The notes under the pieces were generated by a model that saw only the letters and a program-made list of their open reading frames with translations, was not told the origin of the DNA and ran no database searches. From Symmachiella macrocystis (GTDB lineage Bacteria; Planctomycetota; Planctomycetia; Planctomycetales; Planctomycetaceae), in assembly GCF_007860075.1 (NCBI RefSeq), contig NZ_SJPP01000001.1:372001-436000 (forward strand): DNA of 64,000 nt. Reading direction: 5' to 3'. The position numbers and the translations under genes were made by a program. Below, one piece after another: positions 9,496 to 16,611 of this stretch; the first letter of the stretch is position 1, and each line of letters starts with the position of its first letter.

Positions 9496-9603
9496 GAGTG
9501 GCCAGTGGTGAGTGGCCGGTGGCCAGAGAATGGGGGGGGCCGGACGATCATTACGTCTCAACCCTACTCCCTCACGCCTCACCGCTCAAGCCTCATACCT
9601 CCG
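9496..9603. repeat. Composite dispersed repeat (GTGGCCAGTGG block plus CTCAAGCCT block)
   Basis: A degenerate tandem of GTGGCCAGTGG-like words (9496-9528) is followed by CTCACGCCTCACCGCTCAAGCCTC-like words (about 9570-9597). The same two blocks in the same order occur at 28853-28940. Single blocks occur near 23475, 26108, 30195 and 53735. Here the second block includes the TGA stop codon of the antiporter gene (9593-9595, minus strand). Confidence 0.6.
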
Positions 9604-11197
9604 AAGGAGGTGGAGGCGCGCTCTGTTTGCGGGTCAATTGCCATTTGAGTGCGGGTGGGGTGATCATGGTGGTGACCATCACCATCACCACCACGGCGGA
9701 GTATGTACCGTCGTCAATGATCGCTTCGCCGGTGCCGGGGGCTTTGAGTCCGCGGCCGATAGAGGCGAAGATCAGACCGACTTCGCCGCGGGGGATCATT
9801 CCCAAACCAACAGCGGGACGATTCAGCCCTTTTTCAAGTACGCCGAATGAACAGACCTGTTTGCCGATGATCGCCACAATCGTGATGCCGGCCGCCAAGG
9901 TTAGAACATCGGTATTGGCAAAGCTCCGCAAATCGACCTGGATGCCCATTTGCACGAAGAAAATGGGGACGAGCAAAGCGGTCAGCGGTTCCAAGGCTTC
10001 TTCGAGTTCGAAGTGTTCCTTCTGACCGAGTTCCTTGTAATGCGCCCGTTCGAGGATCAACCCAGCCGCAAAGGCGCCGACAATCGGAGCCAGACCGACC
10101 ACGTTCGCCAGCCACGAGAATCCGAAACAGATCACCAGTGCTGTCGCTACAAGTAGCCCGTGCCCGCGGAGAACACTGGCCAGTTTGAAGAGCGGGCGGG
10201 TGATCAGTACGGTCCCCAACAGCACAGCTCCCCCCAAAAACGCCATCGTCAGGCCGATGGTTTTGGTGAGCGCCATTGGATCGACGCTGCCATGTTCGAT
10301 GATTCCGGTCACAACTGCCAAAATCACCAAACCTAGCACGTCGTCAATCACGGCAGCGCCGAGAATGATCTGGCCTTCTTTATCTTGATGCTTTCCTAAG
10401 TCCTTGAGCACGCGGGCGGTAATGCCCACGCTGGTGGCGCACAATGTGGCGCCGATGAATAAGTGTGCGTTGCTACCGGCGGCGGGGATGATCATTCTGG
10501 AGACGATGTAACCCAAGGCGAAGGGGACGATCACCCCCAGCACGGCGACAAACAAAGACGATTTGCCGACCGAAAGCATCTGCTTCACGCTGGTTTCGAG
10601 GCCGACTTCGAACAGCAACAGAATCACGCCGACGCGGGCCAGCATGTCGAGCGTCGCGCCCGGTTCCATCCGCTCTGCGACAAACTCGCCGATTTTTTCC
10701 TGCGGCCCGAACACCAAATTCCCCATCAGGAGTTCGGCGTTGGGTGGTTTGAGGAATTCTAGTACGTCGGAGCCGGTGAGTAGCAAGAAATTTCCCATCA
10801 GCACGCCGACCAGCAGTTCGCCCAAGACGGCCGGCATTTTGGCCCGCTCGGCGAGATCGCCGCCCACTTTGGCCAAAAACAGGATGATGCAAATTCCGGC
10901 CAATAGCGGCGCAACTGGATCGGAGTGTCCCCCGCTATGCCCTTCTTCGTGACCTTCTTCATGGCCTTCCACAGCGCCTTCTGCATGGGCTGCGTCGCCT
11001 TCGGCCTGTTCCCCGGCAGCTGGGGGATGGTCCGTAGTGGTCGCCTGCGCCCAGACGGAATTAAGTCGACCGCCGGAAATCATCAAAGCGGCGAACAGCA
11101 ACAGGGCCATCCATCGCCAAGTCCAGGCGCCACGACGGTTGCGCGGATGTTTGGCCAGTTTCAGTGGTTCGATTGTCTGCGATAGCTTCCCGGACAC
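9593..11197 (-). CDS. Kef-type cation:proton antiporter (CPA2 family)
   Basis: Inner-membrane monovalent cation/H+ antiporter of 534 aa from the GTG at 11197. That start follows an AGGAG ribosome-binding site 10 bases away and gives a signal-like segment at residues 29-50. After it comes a His/Glu/Gly-rich stretch (residues 71-92, repeating EEGH) that may bind metal, then about 12 membrane segments of the Na/H-exchanger fold with an LLLFEVGLE motif and a GAAVIDDVLG motif (the Asp pair expected for CPA2 transport). No C-terminal TrkA-N/RCK domain is present; the protein ends soon after the last segment with a Pro-rich tail. The open frame extends upstream to 11518, but that part is not protein-like. 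Confidence 0.88.
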   Translation of the reverse strand: MSGKLSQTIEPLKLAKHPRNRRGAWTWRWMALLLFAALMISGGRLNSVWAQATTTDHPPAAGEQAEGDAAHAEGAVEGHEEGHEEGHSGGHSDPVAPLLAGICIILFLAKVGGDLAERAKMPAVLGELLVGVLMGNFLLLTGSDVLEFLKPPNAELLMGNLVFGPQEKIGEFVAERMEPGATLDMLARVGVILLLFEVGLETSVKQMLSVGKSSLFVAVLGVIVPFALGYIVSRMIIPAAGSNAHLFIGATLCATSVGITARVLKDLGKHQDKEGQIILGAAVIDDVLGLVILAVVTGIIEHGSVDPMALTKTIGLTMAFLGGAVLLGTVLITRPLFKLASVLRGHGLLVATALVICFGFSWLANVVGLAPIVGAFAAGLILERAHYKELGQKEHFELEEALEPLTALLVPIFFVQMGIQVDLRSFANTDVLTLAAGITIVAIIGKQVCSFGVLEKGLNRPAVGLGMIPRGEVGLIFASIGRGLKAPGTGEAIIDDGTYSAVVVMVMVTTMITPPALKWQLTRKQSAPPPPSEV

Positions 11198-11506
11198 GAA
11201 GCGTTCACTCCTAGTAATGTCTGCGGACGTCAAAGCAGCCAACCGCGTCCCCCGCGGTCTTTCGCCGATTCCTGTTGGTCCATGCTTAGCAAATCCAGCG
11301 GCCGAAGAAAAGCAACTTGGCAGCGGAAATGGCTGTGTGCGGCGAGTTTGGCAGTGTATACGCTGCGGGGGTGGCAATCGTGGCCGGGACGGAGAATTGC
11401 AGCCGAGGGTGGCATGGGTGATGGAAATTTCGTGACTTGGTGGTGCGGAGGGGGTAGGATGTCGCCTTCTGCGCGCCCTGCGGACTTTTTCATGCGACGA
11501 TAACAA
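11198..11506. other. Divergent spacer between antiporter gene and hypothetical gene
   Basis: About 309 bases. The minus-strand frame stays open through it but encodes a Pro/Arg/Ser-rich sequence with no family features, so it is treated as non-coding. The CTAGGAG ribosome-binding site of the antiporter lies at about 11208-11214. Promoters for both directions must lie here; none matches a consensus. Confidence 0.4.
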
Positions 11507-11554
11507 TTGAAAAAACACTGGATTGATTATTGCGATCGCTGGAAACCTGGACCG

Positions 11555-11920
11555 ATGACATTTTGGGTCCTCGTTGAGACGAATGCGGCTTCAGGTCGAA
11601 GGGTTTCGACCTTTGAACCACCCCTCCCAGCACCGGTGCCTGGCGAAGGATATCCTCGATTTTTCATAGAGTTTGACGGATGTACCTTTGAGTTCGCATC
11701 GCTCGACGAACTTCGAACCTGCATTCGAACGCTATCACTAAAACTACTTCCCACGACGATAAGATTGTCCCAAGAACGCGGGACCAGCCAGGGCCCCAAT
11801 TCCCATTGGCTGAGCCGGTTGCCGCCTAAAACGAAACCTTGGCGATACCGGAAACGAGCGGTTGCGTACATGGAACGATGTTTAATTCAGTTCCAAGATG
11901 AAATGCGCGACAAACATTAG
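11555..11920 (+). CDS. Hypothetical protein, 121 aa
   Basis: I do not recognise the family. From the ATG at 11555 the protein starts MTFWVLVETN and has alternating hydrophobic residues and a Pro-rich turn, then a FIEFDGCTFEFASLDEL stretch suggesting a small alpha/beta domain. The C-terminal third is Lys/Arg-rich with a W-R-Y-R-K-R-A segment. There is no signal peptide or membrane segment. An in-frame TTG at 11507 would add 16 residues. It lies 150 bases upstream of the HicA-like/HTH pair in the same direction, in a small accessory-looking patch. Whether they belong together is unknown. Confidence 0.55.
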   Translation: MTFWVLVETNAASGRRVSTFEPPLPAPVPGEGYPRFFIEFDGCTFEFASLDELRTCIRTLSLKLLPTTIRLSQERGTSQGPNSHWLSRLPPKTKPWRYRKRAVAYMERCLIQFQDEMRDKH

Positions 11921-12034
11921 CAATCGATGGCGTATCATCGGGCAGGCCCCTCAGATGTGAGAATCGGTGGACACGAATATACACTAGCAGCCAGCGTGAA
12001 CCAGCATTGTCGCGTAATCCTGAAAACAAACTGA

Positions 12035-12048
12035 TTGACATTCGTCAA
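12035..12048. promoter_or_regulatory. Candidate operator: inverted repeat over the -35 box
   Basis: TTGAC-ATTC-GTCAA is a perfect five-base inverted repeat with a four-base centre. It overlaps the -35 hexamer. A repressor bound here would block RNA polymerase. The HTH protein encoded at 12306-12839 is the natural candidate for autoregulation, which is inference. Confidence 0.45.
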
Positions 12049-12062
12049 GCAACAAGTATAAT
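12035..12062 (+). promoter_or_regulatory. Perfect sigma-70 consensus promoter for the HicA-like/HTH pair
   Basis: TTGACA at 12035-12040 and TATAAT at 12057-12062 are both exact consensus hexamers separated by 16 bases. Transcription should begin near 12069, only about five bases before the ATG at 12074. The first gene would then have almost no leader, and no Shine-Dalgarno sequence is visible upstream of that ATG. Confidence 0.75.
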
Positions 12063-12073
12063 TCAAAATACAC

Positions 12074-12271
12074 ATGAGCCGACCGCGACATCCCAGTCAG
12101 CACATCGAAGAAGCCGTCCAGTACGCGGAACGAAACGGTTGGATGATTGTGATGTCGCACGGGCATGCATGGGGGAGAATGTTTTGCCCGCACAATGAAC
12201 GAGGCGGCTGCATCGAAAATATTTACTCAACACCGCGCAATGCACAGAACCATGCGCGACGACTGATGTGA
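12074..12271 (+). CDS. HicA-like small protein (candidate toxin component)
   Basis: A 65-aa basic protein. Its layout matches the HicA/dsRBD-like mini-fold: an N-terminal helix (HIEEAVQYAERNGW, residues 10-23), a first strand, then a conserved SHGHAWGR turn with His31 where HicA toxins carry their catalytic His. A CPH pair at 38-40 and a Cys at 46 follow, then an STPRNAQNHARRL helix. Known HicA proteins cleave mRNA; that activity here is inference from shape and motif. It is followed after 34 bases by an HTH-protein gene, the arrangement expected for a toxin-antitoxin operon. Confidence 0.6.
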   Translation: MSRPRHPSQHIEEAVQYAERNGWMIVMSHGHAWGRMFCPHNERGGCIENIYSTPRNAQNHARRLM

Positions 12272-12305
12272 GCCATAGATCGTTGCCCGCACTAAAGGGG
12301 GATTT

Positions 12306-12839
12306 TTGAAAACCTACGAATTCACCTTGTTCATTGATGGCATGACCGAGTCCACGGACGAATTTGCCAACGCGATGTTTGAGGCGGGCTGCGATGATGG
12401 GACGTGCGGCTCAAGTTGCGGTCGTGTCTTCATCGCCTTCGATCGAGAAGCGGATTCGTTTCTTGAAGCTGTGCTGTCGGCCATCTCTGACGTGCATCGG
12501 GGGGGATACCAAGTGTGGCGGATTGATGAGGCTGACCAAGTCACACAATCGGACATCGCCCGCCGTCTATCCGTTTCCCGCCAAATGGTGCACCAATATG
12601 TCTCGGGCCAACGCGGCCCGGGGGATTTCCCGCCTCCTATGAGCGATACAAAATCGGGCCAGAAGCTATGGAGTTGGGGAGAAGTCGCGGAATGGCTCCA
12701 CGTTAACAACTTCCTGGACGAGGAAATTGTGGAGCAATCGTCAATCATCAACGTCATCAATTCCTTTCTGTCAATTCGACGAGAAGAAGGCTTAAAACCA
12801 CAATTGGTGAAAACAATCCGCAAAGCAGTGCTCTCCTAA
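12306..12839 (+). CDS. HTH DNA-binding protein with N-terminal alpha/beta domain (candidate antitoxin/regulator)
   Basis: A 177-aa protein. Residues 1-75 look like a small ferredoxin-like domain (strand KTYEFTLFIDG, then helices) and contain a Cys cluster CDDGTCGSSC at 29-38. Residues 79-102 form a clear helix-turn-helix (VTQSDIARRLSVSRQMVHQYV). It is followed by a GDFPPP wing and a W-S-W-x-E-V-x-x-W-L helix as in AlpA/MerR-like winged helices. The start is TTG at 12306 because the first strand begins there and an AAGGGGGA Shine-Dalgarno lies just upstream; the first ATG would delete that strand. It pairs with the HicA-like gene 34 bases upstream. Confidence 0.65.
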   Translation: MKTYEFTLFIDGMTESTDEFANAMFEAGCDDGTCGSSCGRVFIAFDREADSFLEAVLSAISDVHRGGYQVWRIDEADQVTQSDIARRLSVSRQMVHQYVSGQRGPGDFPPPMSDTKSGQKLWSWGEVAEWLHVNNFLDEEIVEQSSIINVINSFLSIRREEGLKPQLVKTIRKAVLS

Positions 12840-13209
<370 letters not shown>

Positions 13210-16200
13210 ATGCCGAGACTTGCCTCGCGATGCCATTTGCTTTTTCTCGCCGTTACTGCTTTCCTGCCCGCTGCATTGCCGGCCGACGAACCGGTTTCGT
13301 TGACTGTTCCTGAAGGATTTACCGCCACGCTGTTTGCCGATGATGATTTGGCGCACGACGTGTTCTCGATGACGTTCGATTCGCAGGGACGGTTGGTCGT
13401 TTCGGGGCGCGGGTATGTCAAACGGTTGATCGATCGTGACGGAGATGGCCGAGCGGATGAGGCTCAGCAATTTGTCGACGGTCCCGAGAGCGGCGCGCAG
13501 GGGATGTATTTTCATGGCGATGATTTGTTGTGCGTCGATGCCAAAGGCTTGTTGCGTTATCGCGACCAAGATGCTGACGGAGTCGCCGACGGACCGCCGG
13601 ATCGGTTTTTGAAGACGGAAGTCGGTGGCGAGCACGGTCCGCATGCGATCCGCAAAGGCCCCGATGGTTGGTGGTATCTGATTGCCGGCAATATGAGCGG
13701 GGTGAACGACGAATATGTGACGTTGCCCCGTTCGCCGGTGAAACATCCGCGGGCGGGAGTGGTGATGCGGCTCAAACCGGATCTGACCGGGGGCGAGGTC
13801 TTCGCCGATGGTTTTCGCAACGCGTATGACTTTGACTTCAACGAAGCGGGAGATCTCTTCACCTTCGACAGCGACGGTGAACGCGAGGTTTCGCTTCCTT
13901 GGTATCGGCCGACGCGGGTGTTTCACGTTGTACCGGGAGGCGATGCGGGTTGGGTCAGCCGGAATTGGAAATTTCCCGATTATTTTCTGGACATGCCACC
14001 CGTGGTGGGAGCATTCGGCCGGGGTTCGCCCTCGGGAGTCGTCTGTTATCGCCACACGCAGTTTCCGGAACAGTATCGCGGCGCGATGTTCGTCGAGGAT
14101 TGGACCTTCGGCCGGGTGATCGCGCTGCCGTTGGCGGCAGAAGGCTCGACGTATTCCAGTGCGCCGCAGGAGTTCATTTCGGGCAAAGGAGAATTTGGTT
14201 TCGCGCCGACCGATATCGAGGTGGGCCCGGACGGCAGTTTGTACGTCAGCGTGGGCGGACGGGGAACGCGCGGCGGGCTTTATCGGATTCAATATGACGG
14301 CGACGAACCGAAACCAGAGACAGCGGCGGCGGAAACCGATGCTCAGCCTGAAGCGGAGACTGTTGCGGAGAAGCCTGAAAAGCCAAACGCCGAAGCCCCT
14401 ACGGATCAAAAGGAACTGTTGGCCTGCCTGGATGCGCCGCAGCCCTTGAGCAGTTGGTCGCGCAAGGCGTGGATGCCGGTGGCGGAGAAACTGGGGGTCG
14501 GACCGTTTGAGAAAGCGGTGCTCGACACGCAGTTGTCTGACTCGCAGCGGATTCGCGCGGTGCAGATTTTGACGGAAGTTTATACGGGAATTTCGGGGGA
14601 ATTGGCGAGCGAGGTCTCGTCGACTGCGTCGCCAGCGGTCCGCGCTGCCGTGGCTTGGTCGTTGGGACGCAAGCCGGATGCGGAATTGGATGCGGAGGTG
14701 CTGCAGGTTTACTTGATCGATCCCGACGCCACCGTGCGGCGGTTTGCGGTCGAGTCGTTTGCCAGCGGAGCCGGTGCTGCGAATGCCGGGGACCTGTTGC
14801 CGGCGATGTCGTTATCGCTGGTGGACCGGGATCGGTTTGTACGGCATGCGGCAATGCGGGCTGTGGGTGAGTTGGACGATGCCACGTTTCGCGCGCTGGG
14901 GAAAGCGGTCCCGCAATTGGGATGGTCGGGCATTATTTCCAACACGGCTGGCTTTTTGTTTCGCCGTGATCCGGCGCAAACTCGGATTAGTCTGTATGCG
15001 GTCCGGGCGGCGCAACTGGCGCTCAAAGGCGACCACCCGGCAGAATTAAAAATCCGCGCGACACGGCTTATGCAACTTGGTTTGGGTGGATTGGCGCAAC
15101 GCCGTGGTGTGCCGGCAGCGATGTCGGGTTATACCGCCGCTGAGGACATCGAGCCGCTAGAACGGCAACTCGACGACGCCCGCACGGTGTTGGCCGAACT
15201 TTTTCCTACGGGGGATAAAGTATTGGACCACGAGTTGGGCCGGTTGATTGCCGTATTGACCTCCTACAATCCCGACGTGCTCAACAAGGTGCTCGCGCAG
15301 ATTACGGATGAGTCGAGCCCGACGGATGATATTCATCATTTGCTCATCGCCGGCCGTATTCCGGTCGCGCGAAATTCTACACAGCGGGCCGCCATTGCCA
15401 AGGCGCTGGTGGAGATTGAGCCGAAGATGACCGCGCGCGATTGGAAAGAAGACACGAACTGGACCGATCGTATACGCGAGATGTATCTGCAATTGGTGGA
15501 ACTCGATACGGAATTGCCGGCCGAGTTGATCGAGCAAGACAAATTTGGGCATCCGGGGCATATGGTGTTCATGAACGGTTTGAGTAAAAAAGAAATACCG
15601 CGGGCGGTCGAGCGGTTGCTACAGGCTGTCAACGCGGATGAGGATTATGCCTGGAACAACGACGTGGTCTTCGCCATCGCGAATGTGATGAACGATGAAA
15701 CGCGGAGTTATCTGCGGGAGTTGTACGAACAGATGCCGCTCAGTGAAGCGGTGACGATGGCCTTGTCCCAAGATCCACAGGCCGAAGATCGTTCGAAGTT
15801 TCTGATCGGATTGGAGTCGCCGCAATTTGAGGTGATCAGTTCTTCGCTGGCAGCACTGGAGCAATTGCCGGCGGAATTATCGGCCGATGAAGTGGTGCCT
15901 TTAGTGCGTGTGCTGCGACGCTTGCAGGGCACGAAGCAAGATTATCGCCTGCGAGAACGAGCGATCCGTTTGTTGCGGCGTGATACGAAGCAGGACTTTG
16001 GTTTTGCATTTGGTGATAGCGGTGCGATCCCTCAGCAGGGGGTGATCGATCAATGGACGCAATGGGCGGCCAATACATTTCCTGATCGCGCCACCGAATT
16101 GACCGGCGGCAACGAAGAAGATGCGGCGCAGCTTCGTGAGCGCCTCGCTGCGGTGGATTGGGAGGCGGGGGATGCCGCTCGAGGTGCTGAGATCTTTAAG

Positions 16201-16611
16201 GCACGTTCGTGCAGCCAATGCCACAGCGGAGCTAAATCGGTTGGTCCCGACTTGGCAGGCGTGGCGCGGCGTTTTTCCCGCGACGATTTGTTTGTGGCGA
16301 TCACACAACCCAATCGTGACGTATCGTCCCGCTATCAGACGACTGTGGTGGAGACCAAATCCGGCAAACTCTTCACCGGATTGGTTGTCTACCATTCCGT
16401 GGATGGCGTCACACTGCGTAACGGTCTGAATCAGACGTATCGGATCGAAGCGACGGATATCGAGTCGCAACGTCTGGTGAATACATCGCTGATGCCGGCG
16501 GGGTTGCTCAAGGATTTGCAGCCAGGGGAATTGGCGGATTTGTACCGGTATTTACAGAGCCTGGGACAACCGCGGGTTGAAGCGACAGCGGCCGGTGGGG
16601 AGCAGAAATAG
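13210..16611 (+). CDS. Secreted propeller/HEAT/cytochrome c protein (PVC-type membrane-bound dehydrogenase)
   Basis: Large exported protein of 1133 aa. A signal peptide covers residues 1-25 (ending LPADE). Next comes a glucose/sorbosone-dehydrogenase-like beta-propeller (about 30-400) with repeated Asp/Gly-rich blade motifs such as DRDGDGRADE. A Glu/Ala/Pro linker (about 365-400) leads to a long HEAT-like helical region and a C-terminal cytochrome c domain with heme site CSQCH at 1001-1005. The architecture is typical of Planctomycetes and Verrucomicrobia and suggests periplasmic oxidation, perhaps of sugars, but the substrate is unknown. The ATG at 13210 is chosen because the signal peptide starts there; the frame is open from 13111. 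Confidence 0.88.
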   Translation: MPRLASRCHLLFLAVTAFLPAALPADEPVSLTVPEGFTATLFADDDLAHDVFSMTFDSQGRLVVSGRGYVKRLIDRDGDGRADEAQQFVDGPESGAQGMYFHGDDLLCVDAKGLLRYRDQDADGVADGPPDRFLKTEVGGEHGPHAIRKGPDGWWYLIAGNMSGVNDEYVTLPRSPVKHPRAGVVMRLKPDLTGGEVFADGFRNAYDFDFNEAGDLFTFDSDGEREVSLPWYRPTRVFHVVPGGDAGWVSRNWKFPDYFLDMPPVVGAFGRGSPSGVVCYRHTQFPEQYRGAMFVEDWTFGRVIALPLAAEGSTYSSAPQEFISGKGEFGFAPTDIEVGPDGSLYVSVGGRGTRGGLYRIQYDGDEPKPETAAAETDAQPEAETVAEKPEKPNAEAPTDQKELLACLDAPQPLSSWSRKAWMPVAEKLGVGPFEKAVLDTQLSDSQRIRAVQILTEVYTGISGELASEVSSTASPAVRAAVAWSLGRKPDAELDAEVLQVYLIDPDATVRRFAVESFASGAGAANAGDLLPAMSLSLVDRDRFVRHAAMRAVGELDDATFRALGKAVPQLGWSGIISNTAGFLFRRDPAQTRISLYAVRAAQLALKGDHPAELKIRATRLMQLGLGGLAQRRGVPAAMSGYTAAEDIEPLERQLDDARTVLAELFPTGDKVLDHELGRLIAVLTSYNPDVLNKVLAQITDESSPTDDIHHLLIAGRIPVARNSTQRAAIAKALVEIEPKMTARDWKEDTNWTDRIREMYLQLVELDTELPAELIEQDKFGHPGHMVFMNGLSKKEIPRAVERLLQAVNADEDYAWNNDVVFAIANVMNDETRSYLRELYEQMPLSEAVTMALSQDPQAEDRSKFLIGLESPQFEVISSSLAALEQLPAELSADEVVPLVRVLRRLQGTKQDYRLRERAIRLLRRDTKQDFGFAFGDSGAIPQQGVIDQWTQWAANTFPDRATELTGGNEEDAAQLRERLAAVDWEAGDAARGAEIFKARSCSQCHSGAKSVGPDLAGVARRFSRDDLFVAITQPNRDVSSRYQTTVVETKSGKLFTGLVVYHSVDGVTLRNGLNQTYRIEATDIESQRLVNTSLMPAGLLKDLQPGELADLYRYLQSLGQPRVEATAAGGEQK

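Follow-up and report, generated by a model that had tools for sequence, protein, structure and literature searches.

The locus described here raises the question of what two small adjacent genes, called A and B below, do in the chromosome of a planctomycete, and whether they act together as a toxin and its antidote, as an earlier note had suggested. Both genes lie in a 64,000-nucleotide stretch of the Symmachiella macrocystis genome, which is referred to below as the window.

Organization and genomic setting of the locus

A and B are real genes which form a conserved operon. A starts with ATG and encodes 65 aa, B starts with TTG and encodes 177 aa, and 34 bases separate the end of the first ORF from the start of the second (Table 1). 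The ORFs, their order and their spacing were as the earlier note had given them, but 65 aa turned out not to be the length typical of the family (see below). One copy each of A and B was found in the source genome of 7.57 Mb. As judged from their sequences, the flanking genes putatively encode a cation-antiporter-like protein (9593-11518, minus strand) and a large, cytochrome-like protein (13111-16611, plus strand), and in a sister genome of the same genus (G001) the pair was located between the same two genes and was 95% identical in DNA. Upstream of A, the sequence at 11475-12025 of the window was swapped in the sister for about 1.5 kb of other sequence. Two extra ORFs were present upstream of A in the sister (L126, 5545-6847), which by eye appeared membrane-protein-like and macrodomain-protein-like. 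When an empty site was sought in a third genome of the genus, none could be demonstrated: one flanking gene was found (72% identity) and the other was absent from the stretch compared. A GCCCACT array of 17 copies was observed at 12920-13041; dozens of similar arrays were scattered over both the source genome and the sister, and the tandem repeat was therefore rejected as a part of the module.

Table 1. Features of the locus, with positions in the window
Feature	Position	Strand	Basis
Predicted sigma-70-type promoter of the operon	12035..12062	+	TTGACA-16-TATAAT, 12/12 matches to consensus
Palindrome TTGACattcGTCAA over the -35 box, predicted operator for the helix-turn-helix of B	12035..12048	.	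Shared with other full-B loci and with sister G001
Gene A (PDC-M06A), basic HicA-fold protein, putative RNase toxin, His31	12074..12271	+	PADLOC match, fold, invariant His
Former tail of A beyond the in-frame stop, reads AIDRCPH then TAA	12272..12295	+	Stops within the family match
Gene B (PDC-M06B), putative antitoxin and autoregulator	12306..12839	+	PADLOC and PHROG matches, model
N-terminal domain of B (residues 1-76), acidic and ferredoxin-like, predicted to bind A and neutralise it	12306..12533	+	Fold, charge -10.2, occurs alone after A elsewhere
Helix-turn-helix domain of B (residues 77-138), predicted operator-binding part	12534..12719	+	Weak HTH family matches, model
B residues 139-177, C-terminal helical tail	12720..12836	+	Model

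Both proteins belong to a family already listed in databases

A matched PADLOC PDC-M06A over residues 1-64 (2.3e-24) and B matched PDC-M06B over residues 1-161 (1.1e-25); with the two proteins adjacent in the window, both genes which PADLOC asks for in PDC-M06 are in place. PDC-M06 comprises the same two proteins in the same gene order and is the same family. Matches were also obtained to PHROG 5923 for A (5e-10), which carries no function label, and to PHROG 2620 for B (6e-34), which is labelled excisionase and transcriptional regulator. The search of Pfam and NCBIfam gave no family for A and only weak HTH matches for B. Because of the PADLOC matches, the claim that the system was undescribed falls. 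A version on the E. coli phage-plasmid Cyrano had likewise been named already, its pair CYRAN_51/CYRAN_50 being deposited as 'HicA toxin protein' and 'putative antitoxin HicB'. The Cyrano and SSU5 pairs are true relatives of both genes and share the same predicted operator; their B is about 37% identical, and their A is full length with a purine-rich stretch ahead of its start. The accessible part of the Cyrano report describes expression of both genes above the prophage background, and contains no toxicity test of this 'HicA' or 'HicB' (PMC9928086).

PDC systems appear in papers as untested or unpublished candidates, which were picked for their position inside known defence systems. Our literature search found no paper on PDC-M06, nor any functional test of the pair (growth, RNase, binding or phage). 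The PADLOC models come without mechanism, fold or regulation; what is new here is a proposed mechanism, a partner B of two forms (with and without HTH), a predicted operator shared across phyla and the truncation of the window's A.

A is predicted to adopt a HicA-like fold

The structure of A was modelled on a close intact relative which is 58% identical to the window's A (24 sequences, pLDDT 90.5). The order helix-strand-strand-strand-helix (alpha-beta-beta-beta-alpha) was obtained, and Foldseek against the PDB gave HicA 6g26 as the best match (probability 0.91, E 0.18). The six best rows of VIA-align were 5yrz, 6g26, 1whz, 4c26, 4p78 and 6hpb (Z 4.5-5.4 over 54-60 residues), five of which are titled HicA, HicAB or toxin-antitoxin complex and one, 1whz, hypothetical protein; the rows below them were unrelated (Z 4.2 and 3.8). 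Such Z values are middling for so small a domain, and what counts more is that the top rows agree with one another. In the comparison with viral models, the close matches to A which carry a name were phage proteins called HicA-like toxin. With HicA entries leading both the Foldseek and the VIA-align lists, the proposed HicA/dsRBD layout of A was borne out by the predicted fold.

At the level of sequence, none of the 27 A members matched Pfam HicA_toxin (PF07927) at E up to 1, and a PDB search by A sequence returned chance hits only. A profile-profile alignment, in which the probability was low at 7%, placed helix 1, the GW motif and the His of A on helix 1 and the GSH His of HicA; its score was 18.0, against 8.7 +/- 1.7 (maximum 14.4) in 150 column-shuffled controls. 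Eight residues of A, namely Gly22, Trp23, His31, Cys38, Ser52, Thr53, Pro54 and Ala61, were invariant in the 31 non-redundant proteins. The catalytic His of HicA lies in strand 2 (PMC7180214), and in the A model His31 was found just ahead of strand 2. His31, being invariant in 31/31 relatives and aligned to the GSH His, does stand where HicA has its catalytic His, as had been proposed, and its catalytic role is putative. The 'conserved SHGHAWGR turn' of the earlier note could be retained for this His, but no other residue of the turn was invariant.

Across its relatives A is basic (pI 8.5-9.9). Like the HicA toxins (PF07927; 5yrz, 6g26, 4p78, 6hpb), it is small, has the predicted order alpha-beta-beta-beta-alpha and a key His that lies in strand 2 or just ahead of it, and is encoded next to a partner gene for a protein with a DNA-binding domain. 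It differs from them in the missing sequence match to PF07927, in the motif around the His, in the conserved STP...HA at helix 2, and in the conserved Cys38 and tail Cys, which were unseen in the HicA sequences aligned. Going by the model, A appears HicA-like in fold and probably in action, and is not a HicA member by sequence.

B joins an acidic ferredoxin-like domain to an HTH domain and exists in two forms

The model of B (pLDDT 93.8) contained an N-terminal domain, residues 1 to about 76, with the order beta-alpha-beta-beta-alpha-beta, for which ferredoxin-like (HMA-type) domains of metal chaperones were the best structural matches (Z up to 7.9). The HTH region that follows (77-138) matched a domain whose structure comes from work on viral DNA packaging (Z 7.4). 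The N-terminal domain is strongly acidic, its charge ranging from -10 to -13.5 across relatives. Cys29 of B, which is part of GCDD, was widely kept; Cys35 and Cys38 were not, and a metal site formed by the Cys cluster was rejected for this reason. Of the earlier description of B as an alpha/beta domain with a Cys cluster plus an HTH, the two-domain layout was thus recovered in the model, but the Cys cluster is not a feature of the family.

B shares with the HicB antitoxins an N-terminal alpha/beta domain, a DNA-binding domain and a gene position beside the toxin. HicB has a degenerate RNase H fold (PMC7180214), instead of which B has the predicted ferredoxin-like domain, and the HicB family was not among the Pfam families listed for B members. 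The earlier note was therefore right in holding that this partner differs from HicB.

In many planctomycetes, the B which follows A was only about 65-127 aa long, ended after the N-terminal domain and had no HTH. Since A precedes both the full and the HTH-less B, the N-terminal domain, and not the HTH, is the constant partner. One genome (G316) carried four copies of A (L035, L045, L046, L047), three with an HTH-less B and one with a full B.

The pair occurs on chromosomes, plasmids and phage-plasmids

In the survey of 294 genomes of the phylum, A or a remnant of it lay immediately ahead of every full-length B place (9/9), and 14/15 A places were followed immediately by B or by its N-terminal domain. 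In relatives, the two genes often overlapped by about 4 bases. The distances of A and B co-varied (Mantel r=0.70, p=0.0002, 22 non-redundant pairs). B relatives were also found in about 280 plasmid records and in SSU5-type phages or phage-plasmids; in E. coli they were present in 110 of 5,426 genomes, every time on a plasmid. Co-occurrence of the two genes in unrelated genomes, directly adjacent to each other, was thereby confirmed by the planctomycete survey as well as by the plasmids and phage-plasmids. Of the three results by which the earlier note would have had its reading refuted, two, the lack of a HicA-like structure and the lack of co-occurrence, were not obtained.

The pair was seen at scattered chromosomal sites in planctomycetes and amid replication and recombination genes in SSU5-type elements. 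Ten planctomycete neighbourhoods (up to 20 kb each) gave no sign of a defence island; their flanks contained mostly ordinary genes with only scattered defence hits. On the Photobacterium plasmid NZ_CP100427.1, an unannotated A-like frame was noticed ahead of an annotated B (L053, 2584-2838).

A palindrome on the -35 box tracks the HTH form of B

The start given by the earlier note proved to be the first base of a consensus promoter ahead of A; three things had been missed there, namely the predicted operator, the early stop in A and the form of B without an HTH. In the window 11 bases separate the end of the -10 box from the ATG of A, and as this distance is 6-11 bases in the window and in most planctomycete full-B loci, the message of A is predicted to be nearly leaderless. 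The enterobacterial versions have room for a ribosome-binding site ahead of A.

A palindrome, TTGAC-N4-GTCAA, lies on the -35 box before A and is kept in the sister. When 39 non-redundant loci were inspected with at most one mismatch allowed, it was present in 16/28 loci with an HTH-bearing B and in 0/11 with an HTH-less B (Fisher p=0.0008), against a shuffled null of 0.46% per locus. The 16 loci include planctomycetes, Acinetobacter, an alphaproteobacterial plasmid and SSU5-type phage-plasmids. The standard palindrome was absent from 12/28 full-B loci, several of which had variant palindromes near the same place; the variants included TTGTC-N4-GACAA (cyanobacterial plasmid) and TTTAC-N4-GTAAA (viral contig). 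Genome-wide, 13 sites were counted in 7.6 Mb, compared with 2 for the reversed pattern. Because the palindrome tracks the HTH of B, autoregulation by B is the simplest reading, and from these sequences B is predicted to autorepress the operon via the palindrome.

A is truncated in the window and appears to decay elsewhere

The window's A stops at an in-frame TGA (12269-12271), 8 codons short, and the codons which follow still spell the tail of the family. This tail, RxVDxCPH, was kept by nearly all relatives, and A of the sister has 73 aa. The tail Cys was present in 30/31 relatives, the window's A being the only one without it. With the last 8 residues, this Cys among them, lost to the in-frame stop, the window's A is probably impaired. 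On the evidence of the reading frame it is probably weakened or dead, with B left as the intact part.

We regard it as slightly more probable than the opposite that the module in the window is a decaying remnant, in which the truncated A would be inactive and B would be kept as a repressor or as a shield against an incoming A. Apart from the lost tail Cys, this agrees with the intact A of the sister and with the intact B of the window, which differed from that of the sister by 14 synonymous and 6 changed codons. Against it, the core fold and His31 remain, the promoter is perfect, and the stop could be an assembly error. The remnant reading concerns the window's copy and is compatible with a toxin-antitoxin reading of the family.

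A was broken with B intact in six loci (the window, L007, L027, L029, L052 and L076), and was gone from two phage-plasmid loci (L090, L092). No clear case of a broken B with an intact A was seen among the loci compared, most of which had been fetched with a B query that hides loss of B. With A 2.4 times shorter than B, the chance by length of six out of six hits in A is about 0.0007 (0.30 to the sixth power), a one-sidedness which is weakened by this B-based fetching and by the possibility that some disruptions are assembly errors in draft genomes. In one of the six, the Mycobacterium plasmid NZ_CP019223.1 (L052, 2789-2995), a frameshifted A precedes an intact B, and a MazEF-type pair was located nearby.

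Proposed mechanism and alternatives

We consider it likely that the locus is a type II toxin-antitoxin-like module, in which A would be a HicA-fold RNase and B its masking and repressing partner. RNase activity, toxicity, neutralisation and repression are the parts of this reading which we infer. A, as a small basic protein of HicA/dsRBD fold, would most likely bind and cut RNA with His31 as the catalytic residue, and the acidic ferredoxin-like domain of B would bind and cover it. The HTH of B, acting alone or together with A, would bind TTGAC-N4-GTCAA over the -35 box and repress the operon; a fall in B would then set A free and release the promoter. On plasmids and phage-plasmids the module may serve in maintenance, in phage exclusion or in both. 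As in type II toxin-antitoxin systems, two small adjacent genes are conserved as a pair. The gene order, the two forms of B, the operator, the opposite charges and the one-sided decay of A all fit a toxin and an antidote with repression. Against this reading, some genomes and phages have B N-terminal domains in the absence of A.

That toxin-antitoxin pairs frequently serve in defence as well, and that PADLOC lists the pair among candidates chosen for lying inside known defence systems, speaks for a dedicated anti-phage (abortive infection) system, in which B would sense infection or be inactivated by it and A would shut the cell down. This possibility overlaps with the toxin-antitoxin reading, the difference being one of purpose, and we hold it to be rather unlikely. 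The ten planctomycete neighbourhoods were mostly ordinary, the pair sits with replication and recombination genes in SSU5-type elements, and the PADLOC candidates PDC-M63AB and PDC-S04 gave no defence in tests (PMC12409345).

It is more doubtful still that A is a regulator which binds RNA and is not toxic, and that B is a transcription factor, the two forming a lysis-lysogeny or copy-number switch of phage-plasmids. Such a switch would suit the PHROG name of the B family, the replication genes adjoining the pair in SSU5-type elements and a B-like protein beside the immunity repressor of a Gordonia phage, but not the invariant His at the HicA position, the one-sided decay of A or the spread over chromosomes across a phylum, outside phages. 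That the pair is a canonical HicAB system, as the HicA-like fold with its His and the GenBank names for Cyrano would have it, was rejected as highly improbable on the Pfam results (no HicA match in A members, no HicB among the families listed for B) and on the beta-alpha-beta-beta-alpha-beta, ferredoxin-like N-terminal domain of B, to which the two conserved Cys and the tail of A, unseen in aligned HicA sequences, can be added.

Returning to the toxin-antitoxin reading, a speculative extension of it, to which we give little credence at present, is that PDC-M06 represents a separate toxin-antitoxin class, with a Cys-containing HicA-fold RNase kept in check by an acidic domain of ferredoxin-like fold, for which no role as antitoxin of a HicA-fold protein has been reported. 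This domain would move about as an independent unit, which on plasmids and part of the chromosomes is joined to an operator-binding HTH and on other chromosomes stands alone; in phages it would occur as A-less orphans and act as a counter-toxin disarming the A of the host.

With the proposed mechanism there is now a concrete and cheaply testable hypothesis for a family which databases carry only under hypothetical proteins or as a defence candidate awaiting tests; the hypothesis names the toxic protein, the acting residue, the neutralising domain and the DNA site expected to be bound. As the pair is present on a common group of enterobacterial phage-plasmids, the answer bears on the persistence of those elements.

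B domains without A in phages

Lone B N-terminal domains with no A within about 3 kb were observed on viral contigs (L111, 3001-3222; L114, 2995-3246; L115, 3001-3411; L118, 3001-3294; L122, 3001-3243). These lone domains are possible antidotes carried by phages, and they allow the question whether phages bring along antidotes to host modules to be tested directly. In Gordonia phage Horus (L005, 3857-4444), the B-like HTH protein lies near the immunity repressor, and no A was detected. In L124 (625-894), an ORF just ahead of an HTH-less B domain ends with NPGSHAKQIRRWADSC, which is like the last helix and tail of A, and has a different front.
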